Below, in pieces: positions 105-32,076 of a stretch of 33,453 nucleotides of DNA. The notes beneath the pieces are model-generated. The model saw only the letters and a list, made by a program, of their open reading frames with translations. It did not search any database and was not told the origin of the DNA. The stretch is from Desulfovibrio sp. (GTDB lineage Bacteria > Desulfobacterota > Desulfovibrionia > Desulfovibrionales > Desulfovibrionaceae). The translations under genes and the position numbers were made by a program. The stretch lies in assembly GCA_031269345.1 (NCBI GenBank), contig JAISZH010000146.1, positions 1 through 33,453 of the forward strand, in the 5' to 3' direction. How positions within the stretch are numbered: position 1 is the stretch's first letter; every line of letters starts with the position of its first letter.

Positions 105-192
105 AGATAGTCGGCCCTGAAAAACTATATAATTTATTGATACAGCAATATAACTTTTATAAAAACAGTGTTTTTTCGACCAGAAATACTCA

Positions 193-316
193 TTTTTTAT
201 GGTTATTTTTACAGCATCGTCGGCGGAAAAACGTGGTTTTCCGCCGAATTACGCCGCCTACGGCGGCGCAAAACCCTTCGGGTTTTGTAGTGTTTACTTT
301 TGCAAGTAAACACTAG
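193..316 (+). repeat. Five-hairpin array family A/B, copy 1 (B subtype)
   Basis: A run of perfect or near-perfect stem-loops follows an AT-rich lead (193-213). hp1 is at 220-247 with arms TCGGCGGAAAA / TTTTCCGCCGA. hp2 is at 253-267 with arms GCCGCC / GGCGGC. hp3 is at 269-287 with arms CAAAACCC / GGGTTTTG. hp4 is at 288-315 with arms TAGTGTTTACTT / AAGTAAACACTA. The linker ATCG before hp1 and TTACGCC before hp2 are shared with the other copies. The copy lies between eutA and eutT. A nearly identical inverted copy ends the window at 33,312-33,453. Confidence 0.9.
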
Positions 317-497: not shown

Positions 498-1292
498 TCA
501 GATGCCGGCGTGTTCCGGCGTGAAACCTGCCGGCAGATACCTGTACATCATGATGTAAAACAGGCTGGAGAGGCGGTTCAAGGCGCGTACGATGTCCTCG
601 CGGCCGGTTCGGCCTTCCGCGTCTTTAAACGCCGCGACGGCGGCAAGCTCCACTTCGCGCGCCACGGTGCGCAGCGTGTTCAGTCTGATGCACAGCGGCC
701 CCATTTTATGACTGACCAGCATATGCCGGTAGCCGAAAAACTTCTCCGGATGGTGCGACCGGGCGCGCAAATCGTCGGCCGTCAACCCGAGAAGCCTGAA
801 TTCCTCCACTTCTGCGCCGCGGATTTCGCAGGACAGAAGACGCCGGGAAAATTCCAGGATTTCCTGCAGTTCCTCGACGAAACGCTGCGCCGCGAGCTTT
901 TCTCCCAGAACCTGCGCCTCCATGATGCAGGCGGTGAAACTGTCCAGTTTGCCGCGCCAGACGATGACGGGATGATCCTTGCGCACCAGCCGGTTGCCTT
1001 GCAGATGGGTGAGGTCTTCGGGTTTGCGGTCGAAGCCGCCTCCGTCCGGGCCGATGAAGGCAGGGGCTTTCTCTGGGGCTTTCGGCCCGGAAAGCTCACC
1101 GCCGTCCTGTTCCGTGTCCGGCGCGCGGGCCGCCAGCGTAGCCGGCGCTTCGTCCTCTATAAGCATTATGCGGCGCGTTTTCAGGTACTCCATTGCCGCC
1201 GGAGTCACCACCGTGCCTTTGGGCACCGTGAACTGTTTCACGTCCGCGTTTTTCAGGGCCAGTCGGAGTTCCTGCTCAGTCAGGGGGTTCAT
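498..1292 (-). CDS. eutT: EutT, corrinoid adenosyltransferase (form without the Cys motif)
   Basis: EutT transfers the adenosyl group of ATP to cob(I)alamin, making the coenzyme B12 that EutBC needs. The 264-residue product is the usual family length. It carries the recognisable block HLQGNRLVRKDHPVIVWRGK followed by LDSFTACIME, and the helical core ending in FYIMMYRYL. The H-x11-C-C-x2-C metal-binding motif of the Salmonella enzyme is absent: the only cysteines are isolated ones in FTACIM, LLSCEI and PLCIRL. A metal-independent EutT class without this motif is known from Listeria and other Firmicutes, and this protein seems to belong with it. The start at 1292 has AAGGAAG a few bases upstream. 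It follows eutQ across a hairpin array of about 165 bp. Confidence 0.9.
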   Translation of the reverse strand: MNPLTEQELRLALKNADVKQFTVPKGTVVTPAAMEYLKTRRIMLIEDEAPATLAARAPDTEQDGGELSGPKAPEKAPAFIGPDGGGFDRKPEDLTHLQGNRLVRKDHPVIVWRGKLDSFTACIMEAQVLGEKLAAQRFVEELQEILEFSRRLLSCEIRGAEVEEFRLLGLTADDLRARSHHPEKFFGYRHMLVSHKMGPLCIRLNTLRTVAREVELAAVAAFKDAEGRTGREDIVRALNRLSSLFYIMMYRYLPAGFTPEHAGI

Positions 1293-1318
1293 CTGAGCTT
1301 CCTTTACGGTTTGAAACC

Positions 1319-1436
1319 CCGGCCTTCAGGCCGGAGAGCCCGACCCCGCCCTGAAGGGCGGGGTATCCGTACGGGCGGAAGCTTGGGCGGGGTCCAAACC
1401 CCGCCCAAGCGCAAGACGCATGGGCCAAGCCCATGC
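1319..1436. repeat. Hairpin array D (eutQ-eutT gap)
   Basis: Four GC-rich stem-loops lie in a row. They are CCGGCCT/AGGCCGG at 1319-1334, CCCCGCCCT/AGGGCGGGG at 1344-1363, GCTTGGGCGGGG/CCCCGCCCAAGC at 1381-1410 (12-bp perfect stem) and GCATGGGC/GCCCATGC at 1418-1436. The sequence is unrelated to families A/B and C, but the string-of-hairpins layout is the same. It fills the only large gap between eutQ and eutT. It could act as an mRNA processing or stability element inside the operon; this is inference. Confidence 0.8.
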
Positions 1437-1458
1437 TGCCTACTTGGTTGCCTCTCCA

Positions 1459-1917
1459 TCAGTTCTGTTCGCTCCAGTTGGCGGGATAGACCACATAGAG
1501 GAAACGGACCTTGCCCGGAGCGGAGAACTGGATGGCCGATCCGGCCGGTATGAAGATCAGGTCTCCGGCCTGCCCGCACACCTTGCGGCCGTCGATAAGA
1601 ATCTCCAGGGTTCCGTTGATGACATAGTCCACCTCGTCATAATTCAGGGTCCACTCGAAGGCGGTGTGGTCCATCTCCATGACCCCAAAGCCCAAACGGG
1701 GACTTTCCTCCAAAGTGGGAATGTCTTTCACCAGCACTCCGGCGCCCGGCTTGCCGGTATCAAAGAGTTCGGGCCGTATGGCCGGCAGATGCACCGACAT
1801 TATGCCGCTTTTGTCCACGTGTTTGGGACCCGCCAAAGCGCCGCCGTTTTCCGCGAGAATGTCGGCCAGCGCTTTGCGGACCAGAGACTCCAGATTTTTT
1901 TCATCAATGCCTTTCAT
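1459..1917 (-). CDS. eutQ: EutQ, cupin-fold ethanolamine utilisation protein (short form)
   Basis: EutQ is a cupin protein; the Salmonella homologue has acetate kinase activity and supports compartment assembly. This 152-residue form lacks about 80 N-terminal residues of the enterobacterial protein and keeps the cupin core (roughly residues 60-150). Recognisable blocks are FGVMEMDHTAFEWTLNYDE, VDYVINGTLEILIDG and GDLIFIPAGSAIQFSAPG. Residues 1-25 form a likely amphipathic helix (KNLESLVRKALADIL) followed by a Gly/Ala linker, as in microcompartment targeting peptides. The ATG at 1917 has AAAGGA upstream. It sits 23 bases after eutH. Similar short forms occur in Firmicutes-type eut loci. Confidence 0.9.
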   Translation of the reverse strand: MKGIDEKNLESLVRKALADILAENGGALAGPKHVDKSGIMSVHLPAIRPELFDTGKPGAGVLVKDIPTLEESPRLGFGVMEMDHTAFEWTLNYDEVDYVINGTLEILIDGRKVCGQAGDLIFIPAGSAIQFSAPGKVRFLYVVYPANWSEQN

Positions 1918-1940
1918 GGATTTTTCCTTTATTCCCGATC

Positions 1941-3062
1941 TCAGGCCGTGCTTTTGGGAGCGGCGAAGGCGGCCACAATCACGGCGGTGACCCCGGCGAC
2001 CAGCTTGCCCACCACCACGGCAAAGATCATGTCCTTGTTCGCCCCGGCGGTAAAGCCCAGGTGATCGCCGAAGACAAAGGCGGCGCTTACGGCAAAGGCC
2101 ACGTTGATGACCTTGCCGCGATCGTCCATGTCCTTGAGGATGGTGAACATGGCTATGTTATTGGCCATGGTGGCCACCATGCCGGCCGCTGCCTCTTTGT
2201 TGATGCCCAGAAGCCCGCCGATTTTTGTCAGGGGACCGCCAAGAAATTTGGTCATCAGATGCACCAGGGTAAAGGCCCCGGCCAAAACCACGGCGATGCT
2301 GCCTATGACCGCGAACCCCTCGCTGATCGGCGCCATACCCTCCAGCCACGCCATGCCCGTGGCTCCCTCAATGCCGGCGAGGATCAGGGCCACGGTCAGA
2401 AAGGCTATGACGAATTTGCCGAACCACAGGAAAAGGGTAATCATGAGGTTCTGGGCCACCGCCAGACCGATGGCGATAGCCACGGCCACGATCAGGACCG
2501 GGATCAAATTTTTGACCATCCACATAAAGGGATACCCGGCCACGGCCCCTCCGGCCAGACAACCCAGAGGGATGGTGATCATGCCGATCAGGATGCCCTT
2601 GGCCAGAAAGGGGCGGTCTTCCAGGCGGATGATGCCCAGGGCCACGGGAATGGAGAAAACTATTGTCGGACCCATCATGCTGCCCAGGATCAAGCCGGCG
2701 AAGTTGCCCACGTTGATCATCTCCTGAGTGGCCGCCGGATTTGGCGCGCCTGCGGCCCAGGCCCCGGAAAGGGCCATGGCCAGCGGGTAGCCGCCCATGT
2801 CATTGGCCAACAGTGTGGTGGCGAACATGGCCGGGCTGGCCCCCAAAGCCTGATAGAGCGGACCGACAACCGGCTCCAGCACCCGCCCGAGAACCGGGGC
2901 GATGCAGTAGGCCCCGACCATGGACAGGGCCAGGGCGCCCAAGGACATGAAGCCTTCTTCAAATTTTTCGCCTATCCCTAAGTGGTTGCCGGTAAAGCGG
3001 TCCACGCCCGCAACGGCCATCAGGGCCAACATGATGTAAAGGATAACGTCGCTGATGCCCAT
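1941..3062 (-). CDS. eutH: EutH, ethanolamine permease
   Basis: EutH is the inner-membrane ethanolamine importer, most useful when little uncharged ethanolamine can diffuse in. The 373-residue protein is hydrophobic throughout, with about ten membrane segments. It starts MGISDVILYIMLALMAVAGV and has the family blocks ANDMGGYPLAMALSG, GLILGSMMGPTIVFSIPVAL, ATMANNIAMFTILKDMDDRG and VFGDHLGFTAGANK. It is somewhat shorter than the E. coli protein. The ATG at 3062 has AGGAGA upstream, and the gene starts 21 bases after the eutN stop, so the two are probably co-transcribed. Confidence 0.95.
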   Translation of the reverse strand: MGISDVILYIMLALMAVAGVDRFTGNHLGIGEKFEEGFMSLGALALSMVGAYCIAPVLGRVLEPVVGPLYQALGASPAMFATTLLANDMGGYPLAMALSGAWAAGAPNPAATQEMINVGNFAGLILGSMMGPTIVFSIPVALGIIRLEDRPFLAKGILIGMITIPLGCLAGGAVAGYPFMWMVKNLIPVLIVAVAIAIGLAVAQNLMITLFLWFGKFVIAFLTVALILAGIEGATGMAWLEGMAPISEGFAVIGSIAVVLAGAFTLVHLMTKFLGGPLTKIGGLLGINKEAAAGMVATMANNIAMFTILKDMDDRGKVINVAFAVSAAFVFGDHLGFTAGANKDMIFAVVVGKLVAGVTAVIVAAFAAPKSTA

Positions 3063-3083
3063 AAGTTCTCCTGTAGAGCGGAA

Positions 3084-3356
3084 TTACTTTAAAAACTTTT
3101 CGTCTACTTCCACAGAATCTATGATCCCCACCACCACCGCGTCTATGGGGCTGTCCTTTTCCCGCAGGACGTTCCGGGCCACGCTGCCTTTGGTCACCAG
3201 CACGTCCTCGCCCACGCCCGCTCCTATGATGTCGGCGGCGACTAGGTTTTCAGGATGGCCGGCGCTGTTGGTCTGTACGACCAGAAGCTTGTGTCCGTTC
3301 AGTTTTTCATCTTTTTTGGTGGCCCAGACATTGCCGATCACTTTAGCGATTATCAC
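3084..3356 (-). CDS. eutN: EutN/CcmL-type pentameric vertex protein
   Basis: This 90-residue protein is a bacterial microcompartment vertex subunit; pentamers cap the corners of the polyhedral shell. It has the EutN/CcmL signature: MIIAKVIGNVWATKK at the start, GHKLLVVQ, then AADIIGAGVGEDVLVTKGS and PIDAVVVGIIDSVEV. The start is GTG (3354-3356), overlapping the TGA of the upstream gene in a GTGA junction, with GGAGG five bases ahead. This tight coupling fits a shell or cargo partnership with the upstream gene. Confidence 0.95.
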   Translation of the reverse strand: MIIAKVIGNVWATKKDEKLNGHKLLVVQTNSAGHPENLVAADIIGAGVGEDVLVTKGSVARNVLREKDSPIDAVVVGIIDSVEVDEKFLK

Positions 3357-4072
3357 AGGGCCTCCTGTTGAGACGTAACGCCTGTAATGTTGATGCGCAT
3401 GGACAGAACATAGTCTTTGGCCAGCGGCGTCAAAATATCTCCGGGGCTTATGGCCAAAGTCTGGCCCAGGCCCCGCGCTTCCGGGCAGGCGGCCTTTATG
3501 GCCGCTTCATTGATCACCCGCCGCCCTCCGCGCTTTTGCGCGGCGCAAGGCGCTGCATCCCGCGGGGGCCCGCCGGTCCCGGCTTGCGTCTCCCGGCCCA
3601 GAAGCGCCGGGATGACGCCGTCCTCATCCACAATTTTCAGCCCGTAGCTTTCCAGGTTTTTTTCATATTCCGCATAGCGGGCCGCCAAAGCTTTCGGCGC
3701 CCCGTACGCGCGCCACACCAGCCCGGACTTCAGAACGACCGCCGGCCGGCCCAAGAGGATGGCTTCAAGCAGCGCCCTGCCTTCCACAGTGCAGCCCTCG
3801 TCGCCCCAAGCCACACGCGCCAGGGCCTGGATGCCGAGTCTGCTCAGCAGCACCGACGCTTCGGGCGGCACATGGTCTTCCCAGGCGGTGTGCTCGTGTA
3901 TCGCAAAAGTCTCCTCCAGGCGGGCCGCAAGGGCCGGCGAGACACCGGCGCGTCCGCCCACCAGATGCAAAAGCGGTTTCGGCGCCAGAGCGGCGCTTTC
4001 CCCGCCTCCGGACCCGAAACGCTTCAGAAGCTCCCGCGTCACGCGGCTGACAAGTTCATCGGATATCTGCAT
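3353..4072 (-). CDS. Ethanolamine utilisation protein of unknown role (eut_hyp type)
   Basis: The 239-residue product resembles an uncharacterised protein found in Firmicutes and Fusobacteria eut operons (a TIGR02536-like assignment made from memory). Visible features: an N-terminal amphipathic helix (MQISDELVSRVTRELLKRF) followed by a Gly/Ser linker, as in microcompartment targeting peptides; a Rossmann-like stretch with GIQALARVAWGDEG and ALLEAILLGRPAVVLKSGL; a low-complexity Gly/Pro/Arg segment near residues 165-185; and a C-terminal block ending ISPGDILTPLAKDYVLSMRI. This C-terminal motif resembles the end of other eut/pdu accessory proteins. No catalytic residue can be named. The ATG at 4072 has GGGAGCAG upstream. 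It is translationally coupled to eutN. Confidence 0.7.
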   Translation of the reverse strand: MQISDELVSRVTRELLKRFGSGGGESAALAPKPLLHLVGGRAGVSPALAARLEETFAIHEHTAWEDHVPPEASVLLSRLGIQALARVAWGDEGCTVEGRALLEAILLGRPAVVLKSGLVWRAYGAPKALAARYAEYEKNLESYGLKIVDEDGVIPALLGRETQAGTGGPPRDAAPCAAQKRGGRRVINEAAIKAACPEARGLGQTLAISPGDILTPLAKDYVLSMRINITGVTSQQEAL

Positions 4073-4099
4073 ATCTGCTCCCGTGCCGACCGTTTCAAA

Positions 4100-4225
4100 T
4101 TACTGATTTCGCGGAAATCAGTAAACACCGGCCGCAAGGCCGATGCGCCGCGCAGCGGCGTTAGTCAGCCGAAAACAACGCTTTCCGGCTGACGATCCTG
4201 CGTTAAAAAGTTTACTTTTCAACGC
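4100..4225 (-). repeat. Five-hairpin array family A/B, copy 2 (complete)
   Basis: This is the most complete copy, in reverse orientation, between eutJ and the eut_hyp gene. Stems on the plus strand are: hp4 4100-4124, TTACTGATTTC/GAAATCAGTAA; hp3 4127-4144, CGGCC/GGCCG; hp2 4146-4160, CGCCGC/GCGGCG; hp1 4165-4192, TCAGCCGAAAA/TTTCCGGCTGA; hp0 4200-4225, GCGTTAAAAAGT/ACTTTTCAACGC. The linker CGATCCT separates hp1 from hp0. The order matches copies 1 and 7, although most stem bases differ. Confidence 0.9.
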
Positions 4226-4252
4226 ATATATCATAGCGACGGAGCCCGCGCC

Positions 4253-5083
4253 TCAGTCTCCGGCCGGCAAAGCGCCCAGGGCTATGCCCGCCGGGGTGGC
4301 CAGAATGGGCCGCGAAGACACCTTCACGGGCAACGCGGTCTCCAGTCCGACTATTTTTTCGATGCCCGCCGTGGCGGCCGTGCCGCCCACCAGATGAACC
4401 GTGTCCACCGGGTAATTTTCCAGGCCCCGGCGGATTATGGTGCCGATCTTTTGCAGCACCGGAGCCACCAGGGGCAGAATTTTCCTGCGGTTCGCCGGGT
4501 CCAGCTTGAAGGCTTCCGCCTCTTCAAAGCTGATGCCGTAGTGGCCGGCCAGCACCAAAGTCAGATGGGTCCCGCCGGTGGCCTCGTCAAAGGTGTGTAT
4601 GACCCTGCCGTCTTTCAGGATGGCCACGCCCGTGGTTCCTCCTCCGATATCCACGATGGCGCCGTTTGCCAGTCCCAGCACCAGATTGGCGGCTTCCGGC
4701 TCATCCAGCACCCGGCTGACCTCCAGGCCAGCCCCGGAGGCCACATAGCGGTGAGTGGCCGTGTCACGCTCGGAGGTGCCGGGAGGGATGGCGATGGCCG
4801 TTTCCCGCAATTCACGGCCGATTGCCTCTTCCACCTCGCCTTTCAGTTCTTCCACCAGGGCGCGGGCGGCGGAGAAATCCACCACCAGACCGTCCCTGAC
4901 CACTCGGGCCTGGCGTTGAGCCGCGGCCAAAGGACGTCCCTCAGAGTCCAGCGTCACCAGAACCACCGAAGCGGTACCCAGGTCCAGCCCTGTCTTCAGG
5001 GGTTCACGCGCATCGCATTTCCGGCGGCGGACGAAACTTTTCTCCACCTCATCCAGAAAATCGTCCGGCTTCAAGGTAGCCAT
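4253..5083 (-). CDS. eutJ: EutJ, Hsp70-like protein of the eut locus
   Basis: EutJ is an actin/Hsp70-fold protein of eut operons, often suggested to be a chaperone; its exact role is unsettled. At 276 residues it has the family length. The nucleotide-binding loops are visible: LKTGLDLGTASVVLVTLD near residue 30 (phosphate 1), GAIVDIGGGTTGVAILKDG (phosphate 2) and HLVGGTAATAGIEKIVG (adenosine motif). The C-terminus ends PILATPAGIALGA. The ATG at 5083 is preceded by a modest GGGGTAAGG. It lies about 60 bases after eutM and is followed by array copy 2. Confidence 0.92.
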   Translation of the reverse strand: MATLKPDDFLDEVEKSFVRRRKCDAREPLKTGLDLGTASVVLVTLDSEGRPLAAAQRQARVVRDGLVVDFSAARALVEELKGEVEEAIGRELRETAIAIPPGTSERDTATHRYVASGAGLEVSRVLDEPEAANLVLGLANGAIVDIGGGTTGVAILKDGRVIHTFDEATGGTHLTLVLAGHYGISFEEAEAFKLDPANRRKILPLVAPVLQKIGTIIRRGLENYPVDTVHLVGGTAATAGIEKIVGLETALPVKVSSRPILATPAGIALGALPAGD

Positions 5084-5144
5084 GCCTTACCCCGGCGCGG
5101 CCTTTGCGCCGCAAGGGCCGCAATCCGGCGCTTGTCGTCCGCTT

Positions 5145-5432
5145 TTACTTGCCCGCCTGGGGCAGAATCATTTCCACTTCGCCGTGCGGACGTGGGATGA
5201 CATGCACGGAGAGCAGTTCGCCAACCCGGCTCGCCGCCGCCGCCCCGGCGTCGGTGGCGGCCTTGACCGCGCCCACGTCGCCGCGGACCATCACGGTCAC
5301 CAGGCCGCCGCCCACCAGCACCTTGCCCATCAAGGTGACGTTGGCGGCTTTGACCATGGCGTCGGCGGCCTCAATGGCTCCGACCAGTCCTTTGGTTTCA
5401 ATCATGCCTAAGGCACGGGTATCAATGGACAT
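5145..5432 (-). CDS. eutM: EutM-like hexameric shell protein, copy 1 (promoter-distal)
   Basis: A 95-residue single-domain BMC-H protein that forms flat hexamers of the shell. It contains [50 protein letters not shown] and the EutM-type end [17 protein letters not shown]. The pore loop reads L-V-G-G-G where E. coli EutM has Q-I-G-G-G. A longer frame opens upstream, but the ATG at 5432 has GAGGAGGT eight bases before it, and the homology starts there. About 82 of 95 residues match the second copy at 5679. The differences sit mainly in the first six residues and the last four. Confidence 0.95.
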
Positions 5433-5525
5433 AAGAGAATACCTCCTCGGGTTCTGCGGGTAAGGGTTTCCCTTACCGTTTCGGTTGCGCAAGCCGGCGC
5501 ATTTTTACGAAAATCCGTAATTTTG

Positions 5526-5664
5526 ATGTCGATTCGCTTTCGCTGGAAAGCGAATCGGTACGCGGAGGCGAAGCCGCCGCCCGCGGGTTTTTGAAAAATC
5601 AAGCTTCGCCTGTTTTTCAAAAGCCTTGGCGTCCTGCATTCAAACTCGTTTGAATGCGACTTGA
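5526..5664 (-). repeat. Hairpin array family C, copy a (between the two eutM genes)
   Basis: Stem-loops in reverse orientation: CGATTCGCTTTC/GAAAGCGAATCG at 5530-5557 (12-bp perfect stem); a GC-rich GGCG/CGCC region near 5565-5580; a long AT-rich stem with TTTTTGAAAAA and TTTTTCAAAA arms around 5588-5622; and GCATTCAAAC/GTTTGAATGC at 5636-5657. Same layout as the copies at 5,996, 27,682 and 29,680. Confidence 0.88.
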
Positions 5665-5678
5665 TATGAGACGGTGGT

Positions 5679-5966
5679 CTACCCTTCGGCTTTGGGCAGA
5701 ATCATCTCGACTTCACTATGGGGGCGGGGGATGACGTGAACGGAGACCAGCTCGCCCACCCGTCCGGCCGCCGCCGCCCCGGCGTCTGTGGCGGCCTTGA
5801 CCGCGCCCACGTCGCCGCGGACCGTTACCGTGACCAGACCTCCGCCCACCAGCACCTTGCCGGTCAGGGTGACGTTGGCGGCTTTGACCATGGCGTCGGC
5901 AGCCTCAATGGCCCCGACCAGTCCCTTGGTTTCAATCATGCCCAGTGCCTGTTGCGGATTGTCCAT
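5679..5966 (-). CDS. eutM: EutM-like hexameric shell protein, copy 2 (promoter-proximal)
   Basis: Second 95-residue BMC-H protein, starting [20 protein letters not shown] and ending [20 protein letters not shown] plus a final Gly. The pore loop L-V-G-G-G is the same as in the neighbour at 5145. Internal differences from that copy are few (Thr for Met at two positions, Gly for Ser, Val for Leu, Ser for Gly). The ATG at 5966 has GGAGGGAG upstream. The gene is separated from its paralogue by one family C array and from eutE by another in the same orientation. This pattern suggests tandem duplication of an array-plus-gene unit. Confidence 0.95.
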
Positions 5967-5995
5967 AGCGCTCCCTCCGGGTTTCCGAGCGGTTT

Positions 5996-6137
5996 ATACC
6001 AATTTGCTTTCGACAGAAAGCCAATTGGGATGGCGGAGGCAAAGCCGCCGCCCGCAAGTTTTTGAAAAATCAGGCTTCGCCTGTTTTTCAAAAACTTTTG
6101 CGTCTTGCATCCAAACTCGTTTGAATGCAACTTGGTA
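5996..6137 (-). repeat. Hairpin array family C, copy b (between eutE and eutM)
   Basis: Reverse orientation. Stems: CCAATT.GCTTTC/GAAAGC.AATTGG at 5999-6028; GGCGG/CCGCC near 6032-6052; a near-perfect long stem of TTTTTGAAAAA-CAGGC and GCCTG-TTTTTCAAAAA arms around 6059-6094; and TTGCATYCAAAC/GTTTGAATGCAA at 6104-6130. It is open in reading frames on both strands. Its plus-strand frame gives LLSTESQLGWRRQSRRPQV, which nearly matches the peptide found inside HflX. Confidence 0.88.
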
Positions 6138-7610
6138 TTACAGGTTGGCCTTCAGGCGTTCCATTATTCTGGAAACCAGCGCGTCAAGGGCTGCTTCGTT
6201 CAGAAGCGGCGCGGCCCCGGTTTCCGACTGAATTTTCGGTCTTATGTCTTCTATCTCGCGCAATCCGTAAGCCACCCGGCGGACGTTGATCAGGTTGAGC
6301 GGCCCCACGTTGTCGGAAGTGGCGTTATGGCCCACCGCCCCGCATCCCAGGGTCAGGGAGGGGGCCACGGCGGCGGTGGCCCCGATGGCCGCGAGCGCCG
6401 CGGGAGAGTTGACAATCAGCCGTGAAACCGGCTTTTTCAGGCCGAACTCCCGGATTACCGCCTCGTCGCGCGAATGGATGCTCATGGTGTGCCCCGCGCC
6501 TTCCAGAGAGAGTATCTCAATGCAGCGCAGGCAGGCTTTTTCCCAGTTCTCCTCGACATAAAAGCCCAGAACCGGCATGAGTTTCTCTTTGGAATAGGGA
6601 ACCTTTTCCCCCACCCTGGTTTCTTCGCCCAAAAGCACCCGCACCCCGGCCGGGATGCTGATGCCGGCGGTTTGCGCGATCACCTCCGGGGAACGGCCGA
6701 CCAACCTGGCGTTCATGGTGCCGCCGGGGCCCATAAGCACCTTTTCCACCTTTTCCGAATCTCCTGGAGGCAGGAAATAGCCGCCCTGTTTCTTGACCTC
6801 GGCCATTACCTCCTGCCGGATGCAGCTTTCGGTAATGATGGACTGTTCCGATGCGCAGATGGTGCCGTTGTCGAAGGTTTTGGAATCGAAAATGCGCTTG
6901 ACGGCCAGGGGGATGTCCGCGCTGCGCTCGATAAACGACGGACCGTTGCCCGGGCCTACGCCTATAGCCGGGGTGCCGGAGCTGTAAGCCGCGTGCACCA
7001 TGGCGTTGCCGCCGGTGGCCAGGATGAGGTTCATCCGCGGATGGGTCATCAGGGTGCGGGTCCCCTCCAGTGTGGGGTTGGTCAGGCAGGTAACCAGATT
7101 TGGCGGCAGACCGAGGCTTTTGAGCACCCCGCGCACGATCCTGACCGTTTCCATGATGCAGTTCTTCGCGCCGGGGTGAGGCGAAAAAATCACGGCGCAC
7201 CCCGCCTTCAGGGCAATCAGCGATTTGAAGATAGTCGTGGAGGTGGGATTGGTCGAGGGGATCAGGGCGGTCACCAGACCGACCGGCACGCCGACTTCAA
7301 AGATCCGGTTTTCCGCATCCTTGCGGATAAGACCGACGGTCTTCATATCTTTAATGTGCTCGTAAACGGTGCGCGAGGCAAAGAGGTTTTTGACCACCTT
7401 GTCCTGCCAGATCCCGAAGCCGGTCTCCTCGTGAGCCAGCTTGGCCAGCCGGACTGCCTGGGCTTCCGCGGCTTTTGCCGCGCAAGCCACGGCATTGTCC
7501 ACAGCGGCCTGATCCAGCTCACGATAGATATCCTGGGCCTCGGCGGCCAGTTGCACCAAATTGCGGGCTTCCTGAATTGAAATCAGGTCCAGGTCTTTGA
7601 CTGTGATCAA
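6138..7610 (-). CDS. eutE: EutE, CoA-acylating acetaldehyde dehydrogenase
   Basis: EutE oxidises acetaldehyde with NAD+ and CoA to acetyl-CoA inside the compartment, keeping the toxic aldehyde contained. The 490-residue protein has the aldehyde dehydrogenase fold. Visible blocks are GVPVGLVTALIPSTNPTSTT, the glycine-rich ATGGNAMVHAAYSSGTPAIG, and the catalytic cysteine in DNGTICASEQS (Cys252). The start is TTG (7608-7610), with AGGAGG six bases before it. The N-terminus begins close to the ALDH core and lacks the about 30-residue amphipathic targeting peptide of enterobacterial EutE. It may be recruited by another cargo protein or by an internal signal. Confidence 0.95.
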   Translation of the reverse strand: MITVKDLDLISIQEARNLVQLAAEAQDIYRELDQAAVDNAVACAAKAAEAQAVRLAKLAHEETGFGIWQDKVVKNLFASRTVYEHIKDMKTVGLIRKDAENRIFEVGVPVGLVTALIPSTNPTSTTIFKSLIALKAGCAVIFSPHPGAKNCIMETVRIVRGVLKSLGLPPNLVTCLTNPTLEGTRTLMTHPRMNLILATGGNAMVHAAYSSGTPAIGVGPGNGPSFIERSADIPLAVKRIFDSKTFDNGTICASEQSIITESCIRQEVMAEVKKQGGYFLPPGDSEKVEKVLMGPGGTMNARLVGRSPEVIAQTAGISIPAGVRVLLGEETRVGEKVPYSKEKLMPVLGFYVEENWEKACLRCIEILSLEGAGHTMSIHSRDEAVIREFGLKKPVSRLIVNSPAALAAIGATAAVAPSLTLGCGAVGHNATSDNVGPLNLINVRRVAYGLREIEDIRPKIQSETGAAPLLNEAALDALVSRIMERLKANL

Positions 7611-7637
7611 GGTTTTCCTCCTTACTTGAAAAGGGGG

Positions 7638-8093
7638 CTATTTCTTCCCGGCTTTGATCCGGACCTTTCTGGCCGGTTTGGCGCCGTCCGCGTTCTGGGG
7701 CGCGGCTTTTGCCACATCTTGATCGGGGCTTTGCGCGTCATGAGGCGCCACCGCCTTATGCGCGTCGTCCGGCGCCGGTTTTTTTGGCGCGGACCCTTTG
7801 CCGCCTTGTGTTCCAGGTTCAAAGGCGGGTCTTACCGGGTCGGCCGGCCGGGGGATCAGATGGGTGGCGCCCTGGGCCGCGAGCCGGCTTATGGCGCCCT
7901 GCGCCGCGGCAAGCGCGGCCCGCATGGCGCCGACGTCCCCGGACAAAAGGCAGGCGGCCAGCCCTCCTCCCACCAGAGTATGTCCCGAAAGCCTTACATT
8001 GGCGGCCTTCAGAGCGGCATCGGCGGCTTCCACGAGGGGCAGCAGCCCCCTGGTTTCCACAATGCCCAAAGCTTCCCTGTTATGAGTGTCCAC
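7638..8093 (-). CDS. BMC-H shell protein with a disordered basic tail (EutK-like position)
   Basis: Residues 1-87 are a BMC-H domain: REALGIVETRGLLPLVEAAD, LKAANVRLSGH, the pore loop LVGGGL and GDVGAMRAALAAAQGA, ending ATHLIPRPAD. Residues 88-151 are a Pro/Ala/Asp-rich stretch ending in a strongly basic tip (KPARKVRIKAGKK). E. coli EutK also fuses a BMC domain to a C-terminal extension, but that extension is a helix-turn-helix fold; none is visible here. The tail probably faces the lumen and binds cargo or nucleic acid; this is inference. The GTG start at 8093 has GGGAGG nine bases upstream. It lies between eutL and eutE. Confidence 0.88.
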   Translation of the reverse strand: MDTHNREALGIVETRGLLPLVEAADAALKAANVRLSGHTLVGGGLAACLLSGDVGAMRAALAAAQGAISRLAAQGATHLIPRPADPVRPAFEPGTQGGKGSAPKKPAPDDAHKAVAPHDAQSPDQDVAKAAPQNADGAKPARKVRIKAGKK

Positions 8094-8148
8094 CTTTGTT
8101 CACCTCCCGAAATAGGCCGCTCTCCCGGATTGGAGGGGTTGGGCCCGC

Positions 8149-8805
8149 TCAATAGGCGGTGGGGTTTTCCGCCACAAACTGCACGGCCGCGGCAAAGGCG
8201 TCGCAGGCGGCCTTGCAGGCGGACTGGCTGCCGGTCAGCAGTCCGCCGCCGAAGTTGGTTTCCGAAGGCGGACCGTAAAAGGCGGCCAATTTCACATCGG
8301 CGGCTTTCAGGGCCATATCCAGAGCGTACATGGCTTCCAGCGGAGGCGCGATCAGATAGGCAAGGGGTTCGCCTTCGGCCACCCCGGCCACTTTGGACAG
8401 ATAGCTGCCGGTGCGGGAGATGCAGTAGGCGTAATAGGGAATGCTGTCGTCCTCGTTGGCCGAAACGAACCATGCCTCCTCGCTTATGAAGCGTGCTATG
8501 GCGTTTAAGCCGCTTCTGATTTCGGCCGGGTTCGGGCCGGCGATTATGCCTATGATTTCCCCGGCCAGCCTGGTATTGGCATTGGCCGCTCCGGCGTAGA
8601 AACTCTTGGCGTAAACCACTTCCACGTCGGCCATTTTCGTGGCTTCGTCCAAAGCGGTGTAAGTCACGTCGTCGCAGTCGGCGGTGACCAGACCGAGACT
8701 TTTCAAGCCCGGCTTGAGTTGCAGATCCCTTGCCATGTCGGCGCTGACATTGGGGATGATCTTGGCCGCCAGGATCGAAGTTTTCAGAGGATCGTTCTTA
8801 GCCAT
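8149..8805 (-). CDS. eutL: EutL, trimeric tandem-BMC shell protein
   Basis: EutL is a circularly permuted tandem-BMC protein forming pseudohexameric trimers with a gated central pore. The 218-residue product has the family length. Characteristic blocks are KPGLKSLGLVTADCDDVTYT, ALDEATKMADVEVVYAKSFY, ISRTGSYLSKVAGV, APPLEAMYALDMALKAADV and FYGPPSETNFGGGLLTGSQS. The frame is open further upstream, but homology and spacing support the ATG at 8805, preceded by GAAGGG and 19 bases after the eutC stop. It follows the lyase genes, as in E. coli. Confidence 0.95.
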   Translation of the reverse strand: MAKNDPLKTSILAAKIIPNVSADMARDLQLKPGLKSLGLVTADCDDVTYTALDEATKMADVEVVYAKSFYAGAANANTRLAGEIIGIIAGPNPAEIRSGLNAIARFISEEAWFVSANEDDSIPYYAYCISRTGSYLSKVAGVAEGEPLAYLIAPPLEAMYALDMALKAADVKLAAFYGPPSETNFGGGLLTGSQSACKAACDAFAAAVQFVAENPTAY

Positions 8806-8824
8806 GTCGCTACCCTTCGCTTGC

Positions 8825-9709
8825 TTAGAGTTTAAGGTCCAGCCCGCTGGCCTTTTTGTCCAATATGGTCTTGATGATGTCTGCGATATAGGCCCCGGCC
8901 TCGACCGCCGGGGTCCCCCCCCTGTGGATGTTGGAAACCACGGTCCGGCGCGCTTCGGGCATGTCCACCACGGCTTTGTACGCCACATAGGCGGACATGC
9001 TCTCCGCGGTGATCAGGCCGGGCCGTTCTCCGATCAGGACGCAAACCACTTCCGCTCCGGTGATTTCCGAAATGTGGTCCTCAACGCCCACCCGGCCGTA
9101 TTGCACGAAGAAGGGCGCGCAGGGTTTGAGGTTGTGGCGCGCCAGCCCGTCGGCCATGGCCTTCAGCGTGTCGGGGGCGTTGACGGTGACGGCCGTGGTG
9201 GAGAGCCCGTCGGCCACAAAGACGACCACCCGGTTGTTTCCTCCCACATGGGCCTTGATCTTTGCGACATCCTCCTCCGCGCAGAAGCGGCCGAGGTCGG
9301 GACGGGTCAGGTATTCGTCCTTGCTTGAGCACAGGGATTTGAAATGAGCGAAGCCGTGTTCTTTGACCCACTCTTCCGAGACATCGGTGAAAACGGCATC
9401 CATAGCCACGGCGTGGTCGGCGCGGAAGCGCAGGAGCGTTTCCGTCAGGTAGCGCGGACCGGCCCGCCAGACCCCGATACGCGCCGGAGTGGTTTTTTTC
9501 ATGGTCCGCATCGCGCCTGGATTGTGGGGGTGAGGCACCTTGACGACCTCTTGCGGGTCCTGGGCGGCAAGATCCGGCAGGATGTCCCCGTCATCGGCTC
9601 CGCCTTTGCCGGTCCCGTTCCGGGGAGGCGAAGCGGGGGCGGGCGCATCGGCGCTCATTTCCCTCAGTATCTCCTCTACGGCTTTTCTCAGTTCCTGTTC
9701 CGTAAGCAT
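8825..9709 (-). CDS. eutC: EutC, ethanolamine ammonia-lyase small subunit
   Basis: EutC pairs with EutB to form the adenosylcobalamin-dependent lyase that converts ethanolamine to acetaldehyde and ammonia. The 294-residue length matches the family. Conserved blocks are TPARIGVWRAGPRYLTETLL, RFRADHAVAMDAVF, VVVFVADGLSTTAVTVNA, CVLIGERPGLITAESMSAY and VSNIHRGGTPAVEAGAYI. Residues 1-19 (LTEQELRKAVEEILREM) form an amphipathic helix followed by a Pro/Gly-rich linker, the classic shape of the EutC microcompartment targeting peptide. A longer frame exists upstream, but the ATG at 9709 has AGAAGG nearby. Confidence 0.96.
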   Translation of the reverse strand: MLTEQELRKAVEEILREMSADAPAPASPPRNGTGKGGADDGDILPDLAAQDPQEVVKVPHPHNPGAMRTMKKTTPARIGVWRAGPRYLTETLLRFRADHAVAMDAVFTDVSEEWVKEHGFAHFKSLCSSKDEYLTRPDLGRFCAEEDVAKIKAHVGGNNRVVVFVADGLSTTAVTVNAPDTLKAMADGLARHNLKPCAPFFVQYGRVGVEDHISEITGAEVVCVLIGERPGLITAESMSAYVAYKAVVDMPEARRTVVSNIHRGGTPAVEAGAYIADIIKTILDKKASGLDLKL

Positions 9710-9777
9710 GGTGTACCTTCTTGTCTGAGCGTGTTCAAGGCGGTGATTTCGTATCGCGCGCCGCAGGGGGGACTGCC

Positions 9778-11139
9778 TCAGCAAAACAGCGAAGCGTCGC
9801 CGGCCTTATCCGTCAACCGGCCGTTTTCCCACAGGCCCATCTTTTCCATCCATCCGGCAAAGGCCGGGATCGGCGAAAGGCCCAGAAGCTGGCGTAGCGA
9901 GGGTCCGTCGTGATAGCTGGTGCACTGGTAGTTCAACATGATGTCGTCGCCGTGGGGGATGCCCATGAAATAGTTGCATCCGGCCGTTGACAGGAGAATG
10001 GCCAGATTCTCTATATCGTTCTGATCGGCTTTGGCGTGGTTGGTGTAGCAGGCGTCGCAGCCCATGGAAATGCCGGTCAGTTTGCCCATGAAATGGTCTT
10101 CAAGGCCGGCTCTGGTGATCTGCTTGGAATCATACAAGTATTCCGGACCGATGAACCCGACCACGGTGTTTACGAGAAAAGGGCTGAAGCGTTTCGCTAA
10201 ACCATAGCAGCGGGCTTCCATGGTCACCTGATCGGCCCCGTGATGGGCGCCCGCGGACAGCTCCGAGCCTTGTCCGGTTTCGAAATACATGACATTGGGG
10301 CCCGCGGCCGTGCCCTTGTGCAGGGCCAGATCCAGGGCCTCGTCCAGCATGGCGGCGCTGATGCCGAAAGTTTCGTTGCCCTTCTGGGAGCCGGCGATGC
10401 TCTGGAAGATGAGATCAGTAGGAGCGCCCTGGCGCACGGCTTCCATCTGGGTCGTGACGTGGCCGAGCACGCAGATCTGGGTGGGTATGTCGAATTTGAC
10501 TTTGATCTCCTGAAAGCGCTCCAGGATTTTCTTCACGTTGTCCACCGTGTCGTCCACCGGGTTCAAGCCGATGACCGCGTCGCCCGCGCCAAAGGACAGG
10601 CCCTCGTAAACGGAACTGGTGATGCCTTCAATGTCGTCGGTGGTGTGGTTGGGCTGCAAACGTATGGCCAGGGTGCCGTCCAGCCCGATTGTGGTGTTGC
10701 AGCGGGCGGTGACGCGCACTTTGGAGGCGGCGTAAATAAGGTCCATGTTGCTCATCAGCTTCGCCGTCCCGGCCACAATTTCTGAAGTCAGGCCGCGGCT
10801 TGCGCGGCGGATCATGTCCCCGGTGGTATTGTCGCTGAGAAGCCATTCGCGGAACTCGCCCATGCTCCAGTTCCGGATTTCATTGTATATGCTCTCATTG
10901 ACGTCATCTTGGATTATGCGGGTTACCTCGTCATCTTCATAAGGCACAACGGGGTTTTCCCTCAGATCGGCGATGGTCGCCGCGGCGAGTACCTGTTTGG
11001 CGGCGACGCGTTCAGCCATGGTTTCCGCTGCGATCCCGGCCAGATGGTCGCCGGAGCGGTCTTCATTGGCCTTGGCCAGGACGTCCTTGACGTCTTTGAA
11101 CTGATAGGCTTTGCCGAAAAGACTGGTTTTGAGTATCAC
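9778..11139 (-). CDS. eutB: EutB, ethanolamine ammonia-lyase large subunit
   Basis: EutB is the catalytic TIM-barrel subunit of the B12-dependent lyase. The 453-residue product has the family length. Blocks seen include VPYEDDEVTRIIQDDVNES, LTSEIVAGTAKLMSNMDLIY, TIGLDGTLAIRLQPNHTTDD, SFGAGDAVIGLNPVDDTVDN, MYFETGQGSELSAGAHHGAD and GCDACYTNHAKADQND. The start is GTG (11,137-11,139), overlapping the eutP stop in a GTGA junction, with a strong GGAGGGGAG before it. It is followed by eutC after 68 bases. Confidence 0.97.
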   Translation of the reverse strand: MILKTSLFGKAYQFKDVKDVLAKANEDRSGDHLAGIAAETMAERVAAKQVLAAATIADLRENPVVPYEDDEVTRIIQDDVNESIYNEIRNWSMGEFREWLLSDNTTGDMIRRASRGLTSEIVAGTAKLMSNMDLIYAASKVRVTARCNTTIGLDGTLAIRLQPNHTTDDIEGITSSVYEGLSFGAGDAVIGLNPVDDTVDNVKKILERFQEIKVKFDIPTQICVLGHVTTQMEAVRQGAPTDLIFQSIAGSQKGNETFGISAAMLDEALDLALHKGTAAGPNVMYFETGQGSELSAGAHHGADQVTMEARCYGLAKRFSPFLVNTVVGFIGPEYLYDSKQITRAGLEDHFMGKLTGISMGCDACYTNHAKADQNDIENLAILLSTAGCNYFMGIPHGDDIMLNYQCTSYHDGPSLRQLLGLSPIPAFAGWMEKMGLWENGRLTDKAGDASLFC

Positions 11140-11687
11140 AGCTCCCCTCCGTTGTGGGCGGGGCCGAAACCCCGCGGTTGCCGACTGTATCTCCGGGCCG
11201 TGCCGGGGCGGGATCGGGAAAACAGGCGGCGTTGCAACTCCTCAAGCCCTTCCCCGCTTTTCGCCGAAACCCGTACAAGATCCTCAACGCCCGCGCCTTT
11301 CAGAGCCGCTTCGGCGTCCGCCAGATCAGCCGGGGAAGCCGCGTCCGTCTTGGCGATCACCCCCAAAACCGGCGCCTTCAGGGCCAGGGCGATCCTGGCC
11401 GGCAGCCTCGTCCTGCGGCCGGCGTCGATGACGAACAGGATGAGGGAGGCGCGGACGGAGTTGAGGATAATGGCGTTGTAATAGCGGGGGACGCTGAGCA
11501 TTTCGCCCGGAGTGTCAATGGCCCTGTCCAGATAAACCAAGGCTTCGGTCTTTTTCACTTGGCCGTCCATAAGCCCCAGACTTTTCAAAAGAGTGCTCTT
11601 GCCGGCCCCGGAAGGCCCGACCACCATGATGCACCGTTTCTCAGCCGCAAGACTTCCCGCGCGTCCCGCTTCCCCGTCCTGCTTCAT
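11136..11687 (-). CDS. eutP: EutP, Ras-like P-loop GTPase of the eut operon
   Basis: EutP/PduV-type small GTPase-fold protein; its role is poorly defined, with acetate kinase activity or compartment movement proposed for homologues. The P-loop GPSGAGKS is at residues 24-31. LVIYLDRAIDTPGE-like residues (ALVYLDRAIDTPGEML) match the EutP switch region, and AKTD near residue 113 is the base-recognition motif. At 183 residues it is longer than the usual about 150-160, with about 20 extra N-terminal and some C-terminal residues. The ATG at 11,687 overlaps the eutS stop (ATGA), and its own stop overlaps eutB, so eutS-P-B form one translational unit. Confidence 0.92.
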   Translation of the reverse strand: MKQDGEAGRAGSLAAEKRCIMVVGPSGAGKSTLLKSLGLMDGQVKKTEALVYLDRAIDTPGEMLSVPRYYNAIILNSVRASLILFVIDAGRRTRLPARIALALKAPVLGVIAKTDAASPADLADAEAALKGAGVEDLVRVSAKSGEGLEELQRRLFSRSRPGTARRYSRQPRGFGPAHNGGEL

Positions 11688-12022
11688 GTTTTCGTCAAAG
11701 GAGCGGGAGCGAAGCCCAGAATATTGTTCAATGCGGACAAAGCCCCGTCAAGGGCGCTTTCAACCGAGGCCACGTCGCCTGTGAACACCAGACATCCAGT
11801 GAAGCGATCTACGAATTCCAGGCGGATGTCGCCGTGCTTGCTGGCGGAATCGGCGGCAATGATGGCGCCCTCGCCCGGAGTGATGGTCATCAGTCCGATG
11901 GCTCCTTTATCTTCGACCCCGATCTGCCGACATAAATCGCGGCCCGGATGCGCGATCATGTGGGCAAGCGTGACCTGCTTGCCGGGGACGTATTCCTGGA
12001 TGGTGCGGATTTTCTCTGACAT
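11684..12022 (-). CDS. eutS: EutS, hexameric BMC shell protein; first gene of the operon
   Basis: EutS is a permuted BMC-H shell subunit with a bent hexamer. The 112-residue protein has the family start MSEKIRTIQEYVPGKQVTLA and continues HMIAHPGRDLC, then GAIGLMTITPGEGAIIAADS, LEFVDRFTGCLVFTGDVASV and LNNILGFAPAPLTKT. The frame opens 14 codons earlier, but the ATG at 12,022 is chosen from homology and from GGAGGCAGAGG just upstream. As the first gene after a 350-bp regulatory region, it probably carries the operon promoter. Confidence 0.96.
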   Translation of the reverse strand: MSEKIRTIQEYVPGKQVTLAHMIAHPGRDLCRQIGVEDKGAIGLMTITPGEGAIIAADSASKHGDIRLEFVDRFTGCLVFTGDVASVESALDGALSALNNILGFAPAPLTKT

Positions 12023-12060
12023 TCGCGCCTCTGCCTCCGAGGCATTTTCACCCTGAATCC

Positions 12061-12073
12061 GCAAACTGTTTGC
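12061..12073. promoter_or_regulatory. 13-bp palindrome in the eutS leader (proximal)
   Basis: GCAAACTGTTTGC is a perfect 6-1-6 palindrome about 40 bases upstream of the eutS start. It has the same geometry as the palindrome at 12,131. It may be an operator or an RNA hairpin; no known regulator motif is recognised. Confidence 0.4.
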
Positions 12074-12210: not shown

Positions 12211-12290
12211 GGGAATAACAGCGTGCAGGGACGGCTACGTCTGCGTGATGTTGAGTTTTGACGGCCAAATCAAACCGCAAGGGAATTTTT

Positions 12291-12365
12291 ACGGATTTCC
12301 GCATGGAAATCCGGACAGCGGCCCGACGGCCGCTGTCGCCCAAGGAAAAGTTTATTTTTCAATGC
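12291..12365 (-). repeat. Hairpin array family A/B, copy 3 (internally deleted)
   Basis: Reverse orientation. hp4 is at 12,292-12,313 (CGGATTTCC/GGAAATCCG) and hp3 at 12,314-12,337 (GACAGCGGCC/GGCCGCTGTC, 10-bp perfect stem). A remnant of hp0 (GGAAAAGTTTATTTTTC) runs to about 12,360. hp1 and hp2 are missing, as if deleted between conserved linkers. The array ends 12 bases before the rubredoxin start, so it forms that gene's leader. Confidence 0.8.
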
Positions 12366-12376
12366 GAGTATCAATA

Positions 12377-14675: not shown

Positions 14676-14697
14676 ATTTCCGCGGAAATCAGTAATC
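14676..14697 (+). repeat. hp4 fragment of array family A/B at the tig 3' end
   Basis: ATTTCCGCGGAAATCAGTAA matches the hp4 core of copy 2 (family consensus ATTTCCGCGGAAAT). Read on the minus strand, it supplies the last codons and the TGA of tig. Confidence 0.55.
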
Positions 14698-19086: not shown

Positions 19087-19282
19087 CAGCGATTCTCCGG
19101 CCCCATGGAAGGCACGGACAACAAATCAAGGCCGTCCCAAGATGTGCTCATATGCTATTATTTGAAATTATAAACTTTTCCTAAATTTGCGCAACTCCGA
19201 ACCAACGCCAGCGCGGCGGATTTTGGGCGTGTTGCCACTTGAAATTAACACGCTCCGGAGGTAAGATGCCGGACGTAACTCA

Positions 19283-19417
19283 TTGATACCCGCAGTCAAA
19301 AGCAAACTTTTCCCTGTGGAGGATCGCCAGCCGGAAACGCGGTTTTCGGCTGACTTGCGCCGCTTGGCGGCGACAGCGGCCGCCGGGCCGCTGTTCAGAT
19401 TTCCATGCGGAAATCTG
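19283..19417 (+). repeat. Five-hairpin array family A/B, copy 4 (A subtype)
   Basis: It opens with TTGATACCCGCAGTCAAAAG (hp0 remnant). Then hp1 at 19,328-19,352 (CAGCCGGAAAC/GTTTTCGGCTG), hp2 at 19,358-19,372 (CGCCGC/GCGGCG), hp3 at 19,373-19,394 (ACAGCGGCC/GGCCGCTGT) and hp4 at 19,396-19,417 (CAGATTTCC/GGAAATCTG). A further hairpin GCGTGTT/AACACGC lies at 19,227-19,253. The 19,087-19,555 gap holds only these and the FIST leader. Confidence 0.9.
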
Positions 19418-19555
19418 TATTTTATGCATGTTTAAATCCGCAGTTTCCGTCCGCCGGTTGGAGAGGATGCGCCCGCAGCGCGGAGGAGGGTCATGCCGGG
19501 CGTCAGGCGGGAATATCCATAATGGGAGAGGCTTCAAACCATAGAGGTATTTTTG

Positions 19556-29468: not shown

Positions 29469-29521
29469 GTACCGCGCGGGTTATTCGCATTCCGGATACA
29501 AATTGTTCCAATTTTATCCGG

Positions 29522-29570
29522 AAATCGGCCTTGCGGCCGGTGTTTACTGATTTCTGCGGAAATCAGCAAC
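29522..29570 (+). repeat. Array family A/B fragment (hp3-hp4 only)
   Basis: TCGGCC/GGCCGG at about 29,525-29,540 and TTTACTGATTTC/GGAAATCAGCAA at 29,543-29,569 match hp3 and hp4 of copy 2. A further imperfect hairpin (CCGGATA with TATCCGG, 29,492-29,521) precedes it. The 29,469-29,872 gap consists of this, the hairpin at 29,638 and array C copy d. Confidence 0.75.
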
Positions 29571-29668: not shown

Positions 29669-29679
29669 TGGGAACCCGT

Positions 29680-29822
29680 CATACCAAGTCGCATTCAAAC
29701 GAGTTTGAATGCAAGACTCCAAAGTTTTTGAAAAACAGGCGAAGTCTGATTTTCAAAAATTTACGGGCGGCGGTTTTCCTCCGCCATCCCAATTCGCTTT
29801 CTATCGAAAGCGAATTGGGATC
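29680..29822 (+). repeat. Hairpin array family C, copy d (best preserved)
   Basis: Four stems: GCATTCAAAC/GTTTGAATGC at 29,691-29,712; TTTTTGAAAAA and TTTTCAAAAA arms near 29,724-29,760 with GCGAAG in the loop; GGCGG/CCGCC near 29,766-29,785; and ATCCCAATTCGCTTTC/GAAAGCGAATTGGGAT at 29,786-29,821 (16-bp perfect stem). It lies between the ferredoxin gene and the small gene upstream of purH. Confidence 0.9.
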
Positions 29823-29872
29823 AAAAGGACGCGGAAATATAACATGCGGAGCGCAAAGCGGGCGGCGCCGTC

Positions 29873-30094: not shown

Positions 30095-30242
30095 TACCCG
30101 CGTTTACTGATATCCGCATTGAAAAGTAAACCTTTCCCTGCGGAGGATCGTCAGCCGAAAACGCGGTTTTCGGCTGACTTGCGCCACTTCGCGGCGACAG
30201 CGGCCGCCGGGCCGCTGTTCAGATTTCCATGAGCAAATCTGT
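30095..30242 (+). repeat. Five-hairpin array family A/B, copy 5 (A subtype)
   Basis: It begins ATACCCGCGTTTACTGATAT, with an hp0 remnant (TTGAAAAGTAAACCTTTCC). hp1 is at 30,151-30,177 (TCAGCCGAAAA/TTTTCGGCTGA), hp2 near 30,182-30,196 is weakened by one mismatch, hp3 is at 30,197-30,218 (ACAGCGGCC/GGCCGCTGT), and hp4 at 30,220-30,241 is partly decayed. It lies upstream of the ferredoxin gene (divergent). Confidence 0.88.
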
Positions 30243-30363
30243 ATATGCAGATTTTGAGTTCGGGCAGGGCGGACGCCGCGGTTTGCAGGCACGGCGCGGC
30301 TATACGGCTCAATAGCCGCGACCCCATGGCCTGTCAAGTAAATTTTTTATTGTAAATTTTTTA

Positions 30364-31837: not shown

Positions 31838-31908
31838 CAAAAATTCCTTTATGGTCTGATTTGGATTCCAGATTTCACACTTGGAATGCTGAGGAAACGC
31901 CGAGTTAA

Positions 31909-32060
31909 TCGGGGCTCCGCCCCGAACCCCGCCGGGGGAAATGATTTCCCCCGGACCCCCTCAGCTGTAACCATCTGAAATATCAACCGGGGGTCAGGGG
32001 AATCATTCCCCTGCCGAGGGAGTGTGAGGAGGTAAAGCCTCCTCACTGGAAATCAGTGTT
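31909..32060. repeat. Hairpin array E (hypE-xseB gap)
   Basis: Stem-loops in a row: TCGGGGC/GCCCCGA at 31,909-31,925; CCGGGGGAAA/TTTCCCCCGG at 31,932-31,954; ACCCCC with GGGGGT spanning 31,955-31,994; CAGGGGAAT/ATTCCCCTG at 31,995-32,013; GTGAGGAGG/CCTCCTCAC at 32,024-32,046. A final weak CACTG/CAGTG stem follows. It is unrelated in sequence to the other families. Confidence 0.8.
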
Positions 32061-32076
32061 TCCATAATAATCGGCG

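Follow-up and report, generated by a model that had tools for sequence, protein, structure and literature searches.

A hairpin repeat of Desulfovibrionaceae, very probably a MITE of the TA/IS630 type, that keeps its structure while its sequence and ends change

Size, TA ends, terminal inverted repeats (TIRs), target duplication, and folded transcripts are listed properties of the bacterial MITEs ERIC, Correia, and RUP (PMC2229807). RUP, the repeat unit of pneumococcus, is about 107 bp long, has TA ends and TIRs like those of IS630-Spn1, and has this same IS630-Spn1 as its proposed in-trans mover (PMC2229807, PMC3049150). ERIC/IRU and Correia/NEMIS measure about 100 to 200 bp and combine TA ends, TIRs, and target site duplication with base-paired transcripts (PMC2229807). 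The BOX elements of Streptococcus pneumoniae and S. suis are modular MITE-like repeats with folded modules, TIRs, and target site duplications, in which modules are gained and lost; in S. suis, the internal boxB modules can be flanked by either of two pairs of end modules, boxA/C or boxE/F (PMC3049150). REP/BIME sequences are organized differently, around a single 20- to 40-bp palindrome with an unpaired GTAG or CGTC tag, and the CGTC-tagged REPs occur in many copies with a palindrome near these letters (PMC3733652).

The repeat described here was found in a window of 33,453 bases, the whole stretch of DNA that was analyzed, which is contig C103 of a 203-contig Desulfovibrio draft genome (2.63 Mb). 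It is a discrete unit of small, non-coding, parasitic DNA, about 125 to 155 bases long in this genus, and on its sequence features it is very probably a MITE of the TA/IS630 type: it is shorter than 200 bp, non-coding, and present in many copies, it has TIRs, and it shows TA duplication with precise empty sites. We place it within the known MITE class because the listed MITE properties match and BOX is nearest in organization. In its combination of a core with swappable ends, the element comes closest to the streptococcal BOX elements, but the host phylum is unrelated and the likeness is one of organization only; moreover, the internal modules of the Desulfovibrionaceae element are single rather than in tandem arrays, and its ends are of the TA/IS630 type, while for BOX the comparison was made with ISSpn2. 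RUP, unlike our element, is described as simple, and the description consulted mentions no family-wide exchangeable core. ERIC/IRU and Correia/NEMIS reside in other hosts and, when compared by their published descriptions, differ from an element with five separate hairpins and subfamilies that have exchanged ends. Its length, multiple hairpins, TIRs, and TA duplication likewise set it apart from the short, singly palindromic REPs with an unpaired tag. The initial annotation had not recognized a described family, and none was found in Rfam or the literature: with gathering and relaxed thresholds in Rfam, the window gave no match and 20 element loci gave only two, far below the gathering score, and the literature covered, which left most subscription papers outside its scope, holds no description of this repeat in Desulfovibrio. 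What is distinctive is that a structured core is conserved in several genera although the ends have been exchanged, and that its pairing survives sequence turnover.

Every copy and fragment listed in the initial annotation is present in the window, with slightly corrected boundaries and strands (Table 1), and the hp1 and hp4 arm sequences quoted there are correct. Predicted RNA folds have five hairpins in A and C copies, and hp0 is missing from the B copy at the contig end; fold z-scores range from -6.3 to -8.2 and are low on both strands of the copy that was folded both ways (30105 to 30243; -6.4 on the plus strand and -8.2 on the minus strand). In the window's own genome, a 146-base query (positions 4090 to 4235) matched about 40 places, nearly all with E values below 1e-18, and A-type and B-type queries gave similarly many matches. 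When at most two mismatches were allowed, the core motif GATCGTCNGCNGAAAA occurred 187 times in this genome (92 + 95) versus 13 times (9 + 4) for the reversed control pattern, from which roughly 170 to 190 copies is a fair estimate. Chance is excluded by the strong genome matches, the motif counts, and the fold z-scores taken together. From fetched stretches around copies, 104 copies were parsed, a few of which are chance hits. The contigs of these genomes often start or end inside a copy (L027, L028, L029, L031, L045, L208, L216, and others); because so many do, we regard the repeat as a main cause of assembly breaks and the copy counts as lower bounds. None of 45 copies interrupts a called ORF, and copies are located between genes as called by a simple codon-score method.

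Table 1. Copies and fragments of the repeat in the 33,453-base window
Feature	Position	Strand	Sequence or basis
Subfamily A element, full length, hp0-GATCG-hp1-hp2-hp3-hp4	30105..30243	+	[TA]CTGATATCC...ATCTG[TA]
Subfamily A element, full length	19281..19419	+	
Subfamily A element, cut short within hp2 (hp0-GATGG-hp1-partial hp2)	31511..~31596	+	
Subfamily A element without hp1-hp2 (hp0-hp3-hp4), both TA ends present	12290..12376	-	
Subfamily C element (originally flagged copy)	4101..4235	-	hp0 TGCGTTGAAAAG..CTTTTTAACGCA, GATCG, hp1, hp2, hp3, terminal hairpin TACTGATTTC..GAAATCAGTA
Subfamily B element with a decayed left end and an intact right terminal hairpin	~192..315	+	Right terminal hairpin TAGTGTTTACTT..AAGTAAACACTA
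Subfamily B element, 5' hairpin hp0 cut by contig end	33313..33453	-	
Subfamily C fragment, hp3-hp4 only, adjoining another palindromic repeat	29520..29570	+	
C-type fragment, hp4 only	~14678..14696	+	TTTCCGCGGAAATCAGTA

The window also holds other features. A second repeat family, with the terminal hairpin CCAATTCGCTTTC..GAAAGCGAATTGG, is present at 5562-5680, 6033-6151, 27679-27832, and 29673-29824; the copy at 27679-27832 lies in frame within an hflX-like ORF (26453-28393, minus strand), to which it adds roughly 50 residues, in the manner of the Rickettsia palindromic elements. A third multi-copy repeat, of about 175 bp (31892-32067), recurs at many sites with 76 to 93% identity, both in this genome and in most genomes of the genus. 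Positions 498 to 12064 carry a gene cluster resembling a bacterial microcompartment locus of the ethanolamine/choline type; its tandem shell-protein genes (5155-5942) are a duplication at 88% identity. In the genome G006, an IS630-family element of 998 bp (L304:1-998) has perfect 20-base TIRs (TAGAGCATTTTAACTTTGAA), and dispersed short palindromes in the window's genome have comparable arms (GAGCATTT/GAGCAATTT).

Alignment of copies together with their flanks resolves three subfamilies, A, B, and C, with the common order hp0-GATCG-hp1-hp2-hp3-hp4 (in core orientation, subfamily A reads TACTGATATCCGCATTGAAAAGTAAACTTTTCCCTGCGGAGGATCGTCAGCCGAAAACGCGGTTTTCGGCTGACTTGCGCCGCTTCGCGGCGACAGCGGCCGCCGGGCCGCTGTTCAGATTTCCATGCGGAAATCTGTA). 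Sequence similarity between copies ends sharply at TA on both sides. The outer 22 to 27 bases or so of each element end form imperfect TIRs, with 19/25 (A), 15/21 (B), and 10/12 (C) matches after the TA (shuffle p <=1e-4); in subfamily A, the 5' end TACTGATATCCGCATTGAAAAGTAAAC is the counterpart of the 3' end TACAGATTTCCGCATGGAAATCTGAAC. Ends and hairpins coincide, since each end is half of a hairpin, hp0 on the left and hp4 on the right. Between them lie the conserved core, (GATCG)-hp1-hp2, and the fast-changing hp3. The GATCG linker before hp1 (e.g., 30145-30150) contains GATC, is replaced in elements of genus g52, and is the most conserved unpaired stretch among copies that were collected partly through this very motif.

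The site of insertion is apparent from comparison with the sister species G006, whose genes are 88 to 93% identical to those of the window's genome. This species is without three orthologous copies, namely, the one at 30105-30243, a copy between guaB and guaA (L049), and L025, and has a single TA at each empty site. Two of these sites align base for base across the junction: CCCGCGTT[TA..TA]TATGCAGATTTT versus CCCGCGATTATAGGCCGATTTT for the window copy and GAGCCGAAC[TA..TA]ACGCAAGG versus GAGCCGAATTAATGCAAGG for the guaB-guaA copy. Three further copies (L030, L034, and L068) all occupy the same TA of another repeat, CCAAA-TA-AAATG. Because empty sites keep one TA and three copies share one TA site, these alignments show that the element inserts at TA and duplicates it. 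Such insertion with TA duplication is the behavior of IS630/Tc1-mariner elements. The guaB-guaA copy (L049:1476-1628) is a B element whose target TA belonged to the guaB stop codon, TAA; the duplication restores the stop.

The initial annotation had suggested looking for a Y1/RAYT-type transposase, and such a link was not borne out: no PF01797 match was found in the window's genome, which is 92% complete, while 5 of 14 control genomes matched. Mobilization of a REP/BIME by RAYT (Y1, IS200/IS605 family), or descent from a palindrome-associated IS605 derivative, would be in keeping with the high copy number, the hairpins, the intergenic location, and the letters CGTC in hp1, as in CGTC-tagged REPs (PMC3733652). 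Nevertheless, besides the lack of a PF01797 match, the TA duplication and TIRs speak against it, and the CGTC of hp1 is partly base-paired, has no CCA tail after it, and does not recur in other genera, so that membership in the CGTC-tagged REPs is ruled out and the RAYT scenario as a whole is scarcely credible. The same genome does carry DDE_3 (IS630-family) loci, one of which ends in TAGTGTCCTGAC at contig C148; DDE_3 genes are also present elsewhere in the genus, as are intact IS630 elements with TIRs that start with TA (e.g., L072, 1213 bp, TAGTGC..GACAAAG). In genus g52, genome G122 contains nine DDE_3 loci, and an IS630 element of this genome (L309:1031-2028, 998 bp) starts with TAGAGCATTTTCACTTT, identical at 17 of 17 bases to the 3' end of a g52 element of the same plan (L277), a link that rests on this one end; the left end of L277 matches less well. 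The ends of subfamily B have only TAGTG in common with IS630 ends of the window's genome (4/16 after TA, not significant against shuffles), and no autonomous insertion sequence matching A and C in their TACTGATA ends was found in the stretches examined, where those with A-type ends were all truncated or rearranged. Given the TA duplication, the absence of Y1/RAYT, the presence of DDE_3, and the g52 end shared with IS630, we regard the repeat as an IS630-type MITE and not as a REP/BIME. The best explanation, and to us a highly probable one, would be a non-autonomous, TA-inserting MITE on which an IS630/Tc1-mariner-type DDE transposase acts in trans. IS630-type transposases may also move subfamilies A, B, and C.

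The modular exchange suggested earlier is supported by hybrid copies, with B left and C right (L062), C left and A right (L133), or A left and C right (L135 and L136), and by forms that have lost hp1-hp2 (window 12290-12376 and L058). The window copy is a real module-loss variant, since both of its ends are retained. L279 has a large extra insert at hp2. Full A-like elements were found in the same genus and in genus g46, and the core with other ends was found in genera g52, g55, g44, and g6, and is probably present in more. Across Desulfovibrionaceae genera, the core has become joined to several different sets of ends. The exact hp1 pattern, searched in 84,980 species genomes, matched only in Desulfovibrio and in the 'Deltaproteobacteria' MAGs Nc350_bin1, Kf353_bin37, Gx481_bin32, and Iy174_bin20, which we take to be termite-gut MAGs. 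Among 199 genomes drawn from the order, 14 had a match, all 14 in the same family, and among the genomes sampled the repeat is confined to Desulfovibrionaceae. Carriers of the core include G226, G108, and G262, whose genomes are complete or consist of a single contig. Virus contigs gave no exact core match and plasmids no match.

Covariation of the paired arms, a further claim of the initial annotation, was compared with a tree-aware null in which substitutions were redistributed along a FastTree tree (a home-made simulation, not R-scape; 200 simulations for B). In subfamily B, covariation is clearly beyond the null, with a summed G of 177 versus 59+-20 (maximum, 122) and a Watson-Crick fraction of 0.902 versus 0.799+-0.020. 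In A/C, pairing exceeds the null in its Watson-Crick fraction (0.888 versus 0.638+-0.027, a null that may be harsh), and the summed G does not (241, within the null range of 158+-43; maximum, 299). Within the genus, the hp1 arms read TCAGCCG/CGGCTGA (A), TCGGCGG/CCGCCGA (B), TCGGCTG/CAGCCGA (G014), and GCCGTCG/CGACGGC (G006); in other genera, they read CATTCAGGCG/CGCCTGAATG (g52), GCCAGCCG/CGGCTGGC and GCAAGCCG/CGGCTTGC (g44), and GTCAACCG/CGGTTGAC (g46). Every representative hp1 stem checked across genera is fully Watson-Crick, and several positions show three to four pair types, in a tally that leaves out the g55 elements, whose outer hp1 pairs are less perfect. Between genera, hp0 and hp3 are wholly replaced and are hairpins nonetheless. 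Structure outlives sequence: the hairpin plan is kept while letters and ends change.

The stronger claim, that pairing itself is selected, holds in part. In its favor, stems change more slowly than unpaired bases, with 3.18 versus 5.87 substitutions per site in A/C (p 1e-6) and 1.61 versus 2.38 in B (p 0.005), that is, at 54 to 68% of the unpaired rate; because copies were gathered with the core motif and filtered on hp2, the hp2 and GATCG rates are biased downwards, and the other stems are less affected. On the other side, departures from pairing show no asymmetry between G-U and A-C (79 versus 63 in A/C, p 0.21; 44 versus 39 in B, p 0.66), and because G-U departures do not outnumber A-C, no particular RNA strand is indicated as selected. 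These figures bear on the possibility of a host-functional RNA, whereby copies would act in transcripts (by affecting mRNA stability or processing or by attenuation, roles that have been suggested for ERIC and NEMIS) and selection would see the RNA fold. The very stable folds on both strands agree with it, an RNA role could still be part of the stem constraint, and copies sit in operons, one of them (L049) some 17 nt before the start called for guaA. We consider such a role distinctly improbable, however, since in addition to the equal G-U and A-C departures the orientation to genes is random: 27 copies lie between tandem genes (12 in the same and 15 in the opposite orientation), 11 between divergent genes, and 3 between convergent genes, a distribution by which the copies do not look like terminators either. 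Furthermore, the presence of copies is not conserved between sister species, and most changes are pair-breaking and fall on terminal branches, which suggests that individual copies decay after insertion.

Loop sequences point to events at the DNA level as well. Three copies have exactly inverted loops, TTC->GAA in hp2 (L243), GCG->CGC in hp1 (L104), and TTGC->GCAA in hp4 (L264), and no other loop in those hairpins is equally far from the consensus when a degenerate hp2 GAA match in L118 is set aside. Apparent inverted loops in L102, L216, and L123 proved to be reverse-strand copies and were discarded. Though small in number, the inverted loops suggest that hairpins inverted in the DNA or that templates were switched, and such events can produce 'compensatory' double changes as well. 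Covariation might then arise without selection, as template switching in replicating palindromes copies arm onto arm and yields matched double changes and an occasional loop inversion. The inverted loops, being at the largest possible distance, fit this reading, as do some 10 double changes on single branches in each set. Yet arm copying alone should not slow the stems, and the order of hairpins is kept across genera despite unrelated hp0 and hp3 sequences, which makes an account free of selection possible but rather doubtful. As a matter of judgment, and with about even confidence, we favor the view that selection acting while the elements spread, at the DNA level or in a strand-symmetric manner, maintains the stems, aided by palindrome-correcting template switching; we prefer this to a view in which each copy serves the host as RNA. 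Selection of this kind would constrain the source elements that multiply.

Somewhat short of an even chance, in our estimation, is the further proposition that GATCG-hp1-hp2 forms a unit defined by its structure and selected independently, which persists in Desulfovibrionaceae by repeatedly changing IS630-type ends, its structure and not its sequence being inherited and recognized. If true, the core structure would be recognized by a transposase complex, by a factor of replication or repair, or at the RNA level.

The interior of a MITE is commonly regarded as passenger sequence. In the Desulfovibrionaceae element, it is the interior that is conserved and the ends that vary, and base pairing persists from genus to genus as the letters change. 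Hence, the question of why a non-coding parasite keeps its hairpins becomes testable, whether the answer lies in transposition, in replication, in how transcripts tolerate the element, or in the correction of palindromes, and a model of the family would aid the annotation of Desulfovibrionaceae genomes.
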